Part shown: in pieces, positions 52,513 to 59,454 of the stretch
How the letters are laid out: each line of letters opens with the position of its first letter
Position numbering within the stretch: position 1 is the first letter of the stretch
NCBI GenBank assembly: GCA_016185945.1
Contig: JACPMR010000010.1
Location: 1-64,000, forward strand
DNA from: Candidatus Woesearchaeota archaeon
Lineage (GTDB): Archaea > Nanobdellota > Nanobdellia > Woesearchaeales > GW2011-AR4
Direction: 5' to 3'
Length of the DNA: 64,000 bases
Position numbers and translations under genes: made by a program
The notes under the pieces: generated by a model
Databases searched by the model: none
What the model saw: only the letters and a program-made list of their open reading frames with translations
Told to the model about the DNA's origin: nothing

Positions 52513-52661
52513 TCCCCACGGCCGGATTTGAACCAGCGACCTCCCGGGAACGACTGATTCTATTTCATCCCTCGCTTTGTGCTTATGGTCTTAGAACGCA
52601 ACTCTGGCCAAACTTTTAAAGTTTCACAGCCGAGCGCTCCACCAGATTGAGCTACGTGGGG
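52513..52661 (-). tRNA. tRNA reading GTG (His) with 75-nt intron; identity uncertain
   Basis: On the minus strand the acceptor CCCCACG/CGTGGGG with A73, D arm GCTC-AATCTGGTG-GAGC, anticodon stem CTCGG/CCGGG, variable loop AGGTC and T arm GCTGG-TTCAAAT-CCGGC are complete. The loop starts C-T-GTG-A, so a canonical 37/38 intron (52549-52623) gives anticodon GTG. GGCTG at the 5' splice side can pair with CAGTC near the intron end, as in a bulge-helix-bulge. But C1-G72 with A73 and no encoded G-1 is not what archaeal tRNA-His usually shows; these features suit tRNA-Tyr better. Confidence 0.75.
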
Positions 52662-56148: not shown

Positions 56149-56212
56149 AATAAAATTTCAATAACAACATTTAAATATAATTCTTTAAACCAAAAAAACC
56201 GCCAGGCAATAT

Positions 56213-56413
56213 GCGGGGGTAGATCCTCAAGCAATTGCTTAGGATTCCTTAGAGCGAAGCCTGGTCAAACGCGCAGGACTCAGAAGTGCGAAACTTAAGA
56301 CCAGCAAAAGTGGACACCCATGCTGTAAATGGGATATCCTGTCCCTTAGTGGGTACGAGGGTTCAAATTGCTGCACGCGAGCATGCGTGGGCATGCATGT
56401 CCCTTCCCCCGCA
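56213..56413 (+). tRNA. tRNA-Leu(CAG) with three introns
   Basis: The acceptor GCGGGGG/CCCCCGC with A73, D stem GCG/CGC around AAGCCTGGTCAAA, anticodon stem CAGGA/TCCTG, variable arm TCCC...GGG and T stem GAGGG/CCCTT are all present, but separated by three insertions. Insertion 1 (about 56222-56253, 32 nt) follows position 9 and forms a hairpin with ATCCT/AGGAT and AAGC/GCTT. Insertion 2 (about 56285-56335, 51 nt) is at the canonical 37/38 site. Insertion 3 (about 56369-56400, 32 nt) splits the T-loop after TTCAAAT. Anticodon CAG is at 56281-56283. A TATA-like ATTTAAATATAA precedes it. Confidence 0.88.
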
Positions 56414-56781: not shown

Positions 56782-56899
56782 GCCTCTGTAGCATAGCAGC
56801 TATTGCGTTAGATTTAAGAAATATCTTATATCCGCGAAGCCTTGGTAACTATGCCGACCCAAAAGGCAAAGGTCGGGGGTGCAAATCCCCTCAGAGGCT
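56782..56899 (+). tRNA. tRNA-Thr(GGT) with two introns, one inside the anticodon stem
   Basis: The acceptor GCCTCTG/CAGAGGC with T73 (a threonine feature), D arm GCA-TAGCAGCTAT-TGC, variable loop AGGTC and T arm GGGGG-TGCAAAT-CCCCT are present. The anticodon stem TTGCC/GGCAA only forms when about 29 nt (56810-56838) are removed between TT and GCC, that is between positions 28 and 29. A second insertion of about 16 nt (56848-56863) at 37/38 leaves the loop TTGGTAA, anticodon GGT at 56844-56846. The T-loop has G where nearly all tRNAs have T55. Confidence 0.82.
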
Positions 56900-59369: not shown

Positions 59370-59454
59370 GGGCCTGTGGTCTAGCGGTTACAATGCCGCA
59401 AATGACAACACCCTTACACGGTGTAGGTCACCAGTTCGAATCTGGTCGGGCCCA
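59370..59454 (+). tRNA. tRNA-Val(TAC) with 12-nt D-loop insertion
   Basis: The acceptor GGGCCTG/CGGGCCC with A73, D stem GTC/GAC, anticodon stem ACACC/GGTGT, loop CTTACAC (anticodon TAC at 59415-59417), variable loop AGGTC and T arm ACCAG-TTCGAAT-CTGGT are standard. The D-loop is 12 nt too long: CAATGCCGCAAA (59391-59402) is inserted after TAGCGGTTA, compared with the related tRNA-Val at 8619. The insertion is probably a small intron at a non-canonical site. Confidence 0.88.

Follow-up and report, generated by a model that had tools for sequence, protein, structure and literature searches.

The interrupted class II leucine tRNA gene in the window (the whole stretch of DNA that was analysed, 64,000 nucleotides long) is very probably a working tRNA-Leu(UAA) gene with four bulge-helix-bulge (BHB) introns, which the splicing endonuclease EndA would cut and the ligase RtcB would join, the intron at site 30/31 probably leaving first. 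The exons, junctions, anticodon, BHB cores and comparative conservation, as well as the presence of EndA and RtcB genes, can be read from the sequence, and from these we infer excision in the cell, the assembly of the enzyme and the order of splicing. An earlier note on this DNA had recognised an interrupted class II tRNA-Leu that is complete after removals, and this has been borne out, with exons common to 26 relatives, far from what chance would give.

Source genome and locus

The source genome is a 1.5 Mb MAG in 24 contigs, 90.7% complete. The SRP54 gene in the window places it among the Woesearchaeota, mostly from groundwater, with the nearest relative 90% identical in SRP54 protein, which upholds the earlier view of a multi-intron tRNA outside the Thermoproteales, in a DPANN lineage. 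The gene has been missed by both ARAGORN and Rfam RF00005, which detect other tRNAs within the window. The lineage is rich in tRNA introns: 11 of the 17 class I tRNAs found in this genome are at least 85 nt long. Insertions also occur in Thr-like (56782-56899, plus strand), His-like (52513-52661, minus strand) and Val-like (59370-59454, plus strand) tRNAs of the window; the Thr-like tRNA has two insertions by appearance, and its orthologue in L039 is uninterrupted.

Exon-intron structure and BHB geometry

As listed in Table 1, four introns have been delimited, with splice junctions set by the 26 related genes together with BHB geometry. Their removal gives a complete, intact 86-nt class II tRNA with a long variable arm, A73 and the anticodon UAA, whose first exon is identical or nearly so throughout the relatives.

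Table 1. Features of the tRNA-Leu(UAA) locus, in window coordinates.
Feature	Position	Strand	Description	Basis or remark
Possible promoter	56168..56190	+	TATA-like AT-rich stretch TTTAAATATAATTC	upstream of tRNA gene; sequence reading only
Interrupted class II tRNA-Leu	56213-56413	+	acceptor GCGGGGG/CCCCCGC, A73	
Exon 1	56213..56220	+	acceptor 5' strand and U8, GCGGGGGT	pairs with 3' CCCCCGC
Intron 1	56221..56252	+	site 8/9, 32 nt	fold and homologous introns
Exon 2	56253..56277	+	position 9, D-arm, 5' anticodon stem up to position 30	
Intron 2	56278..56292	+	site 30/31, 15 nt, ACUCAGAAGUGCGAA	homologues and BHB
Microexon	56293..56299	+	ACTTAAG, positions 31-37, anticodon UAA at 34-36	invariant, 27/27 genes
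Intron 3	56300..56335	+	site 37/38 (canonical), 36 nt	
Exon 4	56336..56367	+	position 38, 3' anticodon stem, variable arm, T-arm up to position 59	
Intron 4	56368..56399	+	site 59/60 (T-loop), 32 nt	
Exon 5	56400..56413	+	T-stem 3' strand, acceptor 3' strand, A73	

For scoring, the cut was fixed after the second base of the 3-nt bulge (marked below by a hyphen) and the number of pairs in the 4-bp helix was counted. With the 3-4-3 geometry kept exact, none of the 56 distinct introns falls below three of four central pairs, and 38 of them have all four; for random site pairs in the window the rate is 15.9% for at least three pairs and 2.2% for four, frequencies whose product is not a probability, since the introns are related and not independent trials. 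The four introns of the window gene have 4/4, 4/4, 4/4 and 3/4 central pairs, respectively. Intron 1 has a central helix GGGG/CCUU, bulges GU-A and AG-A and an inner hairpin GAUCCU..AGGAUU. Its 14 distinct homologues all have 4/4 pairs, with a compensatory change to GAGG/CCUC in L143 and L152. The sites named in the earlier note, close to position 9 and within the anticodon loop and the T-loop, were in the right places, its first cut "after position 9" excepted: here the sequence allows two cuts one base apart, of which BHB geometry selects 8/9. Intron 2 has a central helix CGCA/UGCG with bulges GG-A and AA-A; ten distinct homologues all have 4/4 pairs, and 14 distinct relatives lack it. In intron 3 the central helix is CUUA/UGGG, with bulges AG-A and AU-A, and the inner helix is displaced from the 5' bulge by a 4 x 4 internal loop. 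Intron 4 has a central helix UUCA/UGCA, bulges AA-U and UG-U and an inner hairpin CACGC..GCGUG, its one mismatch (U55 x C) being found also in its homologues in L107, L148 and L149; the close relatives L035 and L116 have no homologue. The other 59/60 introns pair 4/4, and a compensatory change from UUCA/UGAA to UUCG/CGAA is seen, the latter helix in L143. As a separate observation, the homologous 32-nt introns of the window, L107, L148 and L149 share GCGAGCATGC, and the presence of such an intron in some congeners and its absence from others points to recent gain, loss or transposition.

Of the checks that the earlier note had proposed, that for BHB motifs has given cores at all four introns, and that for the EndA subunit type one short alpha-like EndA. 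When the whole precursor is folded, not every one of the four BHBs appears. In the intron 2 region the minimum-energy register beats the BHB register by 0.4 kcal/mol, and the minimum-energy fold with intron 2 removed shows the CUUA/UGGG helix and the AUA (3') bulge of intron 3. Taken together, the BHB motifs of the four introns are near-canonical and consistent with a strict enzyme, the inner helix at 37/38 not fully so; given its displacement, some endonuclease tolerance may still be needed there.

Family comparison and anticodon identity

The mature tRNA was searched against 36 family genomes and the matches were then read. The exons are common to 27 genes of one family, namely that of the window and 26 relatives from many genera. 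Automatic splitting at the same junctions gave an 86-nt tRNA with the anticodon UAA in 25 of the 27 genes, L118 and L146 being fitted by hand. The spliced product is nearly constant, while each intron is variably present between species: L039 is without the 8/9 intron, L030, L033 and L105 are without that at 30/31, and L035 is without that at 59/60. Since the introns are present or absent independently, relatives without a given intron confirm that junction. Two further intron sites have been seen in this tRNA gene family, inside the T-stem 5' strand in L118 and in the D-loop in L138, bringing the family to at least six sites.

The earlier note had read the gene as a tRNA-Leu(CAG) with three introns, which would place ACUUAAG within a 51-nt intron. 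This reading looks perfect on energy alone: the outer cut CUCA/UGGG, with bulges GA-A and AU-A, forms a good BHB and leaves a class II tRNA intact, and CUCAGA has been kept in eight related genes. It is overturned by the orthologues. The 14 distinct genes without the 30/31 intron read CAGG-ACUUAAG-intron-AUCCUG, with a plain anticodon loop, i.e., they are straightforward Leu(UAA) genes whose 37/38 intron is canonical (CAGGA-CUUAAG-intron-A-UCCUG when divided at the stem), whereas 12 other genes, including that of the window, have 14-37 nt between CAGG and ACUUAAG. The last bases of this insert are UGCGAA or UGCGAG, and in every case scored it pairs with the exon as a 3-4-3 BHB, with a helix CGCA/UGCG and bulges GG-N and AA-A or AG-A across genes; the BHB of intron 2 itself is perfect. 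ACUUAAG is invariant. The CUCAG taken for the anticodon loop is part of the 15-nt intron 2, and the CAG anticodon is not conserved among orthologues, being absent from those without intron 2 and from the inserts of five genes that have it (L039, L131, L141, L146 and L152). What had been described as a 51-nt intron is resolved into a 15-nt intron at 30/31, a 7-nt exon and a 36-nt intron at 37/38, and a Leu(CAG) identity is very unlikely. With two introns flanking the anticodon microexon, a naive reading of the locus gives the wrong anticodon. A likeness between the tRNA-Leu and tRNA-His introns had also suggested a mobile intron common to both, an idea that was dropped, since CUUAAG is exon.

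Both products could in principle come from one transcript, Leu(UAA) through separate excision of introns 2 and 3, and Leu(CAG) through one 51-nt excision. Both excisions have valid BHBs, with CUUA and CUCA each pairing with UGGG or UGAG, and CUCAGA, as conserved in the eight genes (genera g1 and g10), has the look of an anticodon loop carrying a Leu anticodon. Shared descent, however, explains that conservation, genomes without CUCAGA seem among the matches listed to be also without Leu(CAG), so that no need for it is visible, and the Leu(UAG) tRNA of this genome can read CUG. A dual product is consequently regarded as highly improbable.

A decayed pseudogene or an assembly chimera might be suspected of a gene that standard tRNA finders miss and whose four interruptions are unprecedented in the literature searched. 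Nevertheless, the exons give an intact tRNA and are identical or nearly so in relatives spread over many genera, every intron is found again, at an unchanged position, in independent MAGs, and no other A73 UAA gene has been found among the matches listed for the genome. The appearance of a pseudogene, which the earlier note had named as the outcome that would count against it, is absent, and an origin of this kind is extremely unlikely. A working tRNA-Leu(UAA) gene with four introns is the reading followed below.

Leucine tRNA set

Three other leucine tRNA genes occur in the genome: Leu(GAG) (L013), Leu(UAG) (L248; G000:C3:110317-110476, minus strand), with apparently three introns, and Leu(CAA) (L246; G000:C9:187778), with about three introns, some of them on either side of an anticodon microexon. 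Given these, the window gene fills the UAA slot. In the proteins encoded in the window, the codons UUA and UUG are common. Among the matches listed to the Leu covariance model in this genome and its relatives there is no A73 Leu(CAG), and CAG therefore seems dispensable where absent; tRNA-CAG is missing from some other archaea too (PMC6000648). A proposed division, with genomes having CUCAGA without a separate Leu(CAG) and the others with one, was rejected, as an A73 Leu(CAG) is found in neither group among these matches.

A second class II set has also been observed, with G73, Ser-like variable arms, Leu anticodons (UAA, CAA, GAG, CAG) and T-loop introns. It comprises L197 (two), L198, L199/L020, L200/L019 and L244 in this genome, and L154, L155, L162-L165, L218, L222, L223, L225 and L227-L229 in relatives. 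Often the acceptor stem of these tRNAs is lengthened by a leader/trailer helix containing a 3-nt bulge, and several have degenerate partial copies just upstream. As G73 UAA tRNAs exist (L197, L198, L199), the window gene may not be the only UAA decoder.

A helper segment and the order of splicing

G37, together with the five bases that open the 37/38 intron, forms GACCAG, which is complementary to CUGGUC of the D-arm. The complete six-pair helper occurs in 12 of 12 genes with the 30/31 intron vs 0 of 14 without it (Fisher p = 1e-7, a value that ignores the kinship of the genes). Genera g1, g7 and g8 each contain genes of both states, so helper and intron have appeared or vanished jointly on more than one occasion. 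Substitutions have left the pairing intact (CUGGCC/GGCCAG in L110, CUGGCC/GGUCAG, and UUGGUC/GACCGG in L141), and Leu(CAA) genes with a 30/31 intron have, by eye, CAAAC in the D-arm and GUUUG at the start of the 37/38 intron (L159, L161 and L246). This sequence evidence suggests that the 37/38 intron helps to splice the neighbouring 30/31 intron, and implies that the latter would be removed while the former is still present. Intron 3 GGAACA can also pair with UGUUCC of the variable arm in many genes, though not in all, and no role has been assigned to this pairing.

In the proposed mechanism, the pre-tRNA would fold so that each junction lies in a bulge beside a 4-bp helix of exon and intron 3' end, EndA would cleave each bulge behind its second base, and RtcB would rejoin the exons. 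The 30/31 intron would most likely leave first, because its outer helix consists of D-arm CUGGUC and GACCAG, the last five bases of which lie in the 37/38 intron. Its removal would join the microexon to the anticodon stem, whereupon CUUA could pair with UGGG and the 37/38 intron could be cut.

Splicing endonuclease

Searches with PF01974, PF02778 and self-tblastn have located EndA at one place in the 90.7%-complete genome, as a single short gene of 197 aa with both EndA domains and, by alignment, the catalytic Tyr/His/Lys. The EndA of relatives is likewise one copy of similar length in nearly all with a match, with a single exception. No CSL/ASL insertion is found in the 197-aa protein where the Sulfolobus alpha subunit (2cv8) has one, nor in the proteins of 28 relatives, and no second or fused subunit (beta, epsilon) has been found in the 90.7%-complete genome, where a diverged beta could escape detection. 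The closest solved relatives are the catalytic alpha subunit of N. equitans (3iey_A) and M. jannaschii alpha4 (1a79), with matches of 6e-36 and 5e-31, respectively. EndA is, by its sequence features, alpha4-like, and may assemble as a homotetramer. The endonuclease with broad BHB tolerance that the earlier note had expected finds no support, the only EndA found being this alpha-type subunit without CSL/ASL and the introns having 3-4-3 cores with one mismatched pair.

In the literature, enzymes with CSL/ASL loops are associated with diverse tRNA introns, and alpha4 and alpha'2 enzymes with strictly canonical substrates (PMC12397907, PMC4090602); hosts of the latter two enzymes are reported to have few tRNA introns, single and canonical (PMC4090602). 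An alpha4-like gene in an intron-rich lineage breaks this accepted rule.

An RtcB gene with apparent introns

The tRNA-type intron machinery found in the genome consists of EndA and one RtcB gene (L250; G000:C4:25399-26757, minus strand), which is open only with two insertions (33 and 12 nt) removed. The 33-nt insertion folds by itself into a BHB, and taking it out yields HWGYGFPIGG, while removal of the 12-nt insertion gives SPGGIGFDINCG, both being strings of uninterrupted RtcB relatives. Interrupted RtcB genes occur in 11 of the 30 family genomes with RtcB, i.e., this genome and ten relatives (L263-L265, L267-L269, L271, L272, L274 and L279), at four sites; about 13 of the remaining genomes have an uninterrupted gene, two have intein-like long frames, and the rest are cut by contig ends. 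The interruptions bring in-frame stops or frameshifts, several having lengths that are not a multiple of three, and in-frame stops within RtcB are rare in the wider order. At site D, TGAC/GTCA pairs once the computed cut is shifted by one base, by eye. These insertions are apparent BHB mRNA introns, the removal of which restores conserved RtcB motifs. The two long frames, of ~1000 aa, belong to relatives of intron-bearing genomes (L273 in G002, L275 in G003), and their in-frame insertions are probably inteins.

Up to a 2020 paper, cbf5 was the only archaeal mRNA known to have a BHB intron (PMC7714728), and no RtcB mRNA intron has been described in the open-licence literature searched; the RtcB introns, if borne out, would add to this single reported protein-coding case. 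It is conceivable, though somewhat doubtful, that a self-referring circuit operates here, made up of interdependent tRNA introns and an RtcB ligase that rejoins its own intron-bearing mRNA. If true, it would constitute a feedback control of the cell's tRNA-splicing capacity.

Comparison with known systems

Archaeal tRNA genes have up to three introns according to the tRNAscan-SE 2.0 survey of 2021 (PMC8450103), and neither a four-intron archaeal tRNA nor tRNA introns in Woesearchaeota have been described in the open-licence literature searched. The 36-genome family, in which introns are present or absent, offers a natural experiment on intron gain, splicing order and intron-intron dependence.

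A near likeness is seen in the multi-intron tRNAs of the Thermoproteales, such as pre-tRNA-Glu(UUC) of P. calidifontis and pre-tRNA-Pro(UGG) of P. islandicum (PMC4390854, PMC4090602), in which BHB introns are likewise placed at canonical and non-canonical sites within one tRNA gene; introns at 30/31 and at 59/60 have been recorded before (PMC4090602). The Woesearchaeota gene differs from these crenarchaeal genes in having four introns instead of up to three, in its host, in a single alpha-like endonuclease gene where Thermoproteales lineages have an (alpha-beta)2 enzyme, and in an outer helix apparently provided by the neighbouring intron. ARMAN (Micrarchaeum), with an epsilon2 endonuclease, is likewise a DPANN lineage with diverse non-canonical tRNA introns (PMC12397907), but neither a three-unit epsilon enzyme nor an ASL has been found in the present genome. 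The M. jannaschii and N. equitans proteins share with this EndA a short single-unit subunit and the same catalytic Tyr/His/Lys positions; N. equitans alpha, however, needs a beta partner, and none has been found in this genome. The gene thus belongs to a known kind, that of BHB introns in archaeal tRNA, with the highest intron count in the literature searched, a microexon for the anticodon and what appears to be a helper intron; the enzyme type of its lineage is unexpected for such introns.
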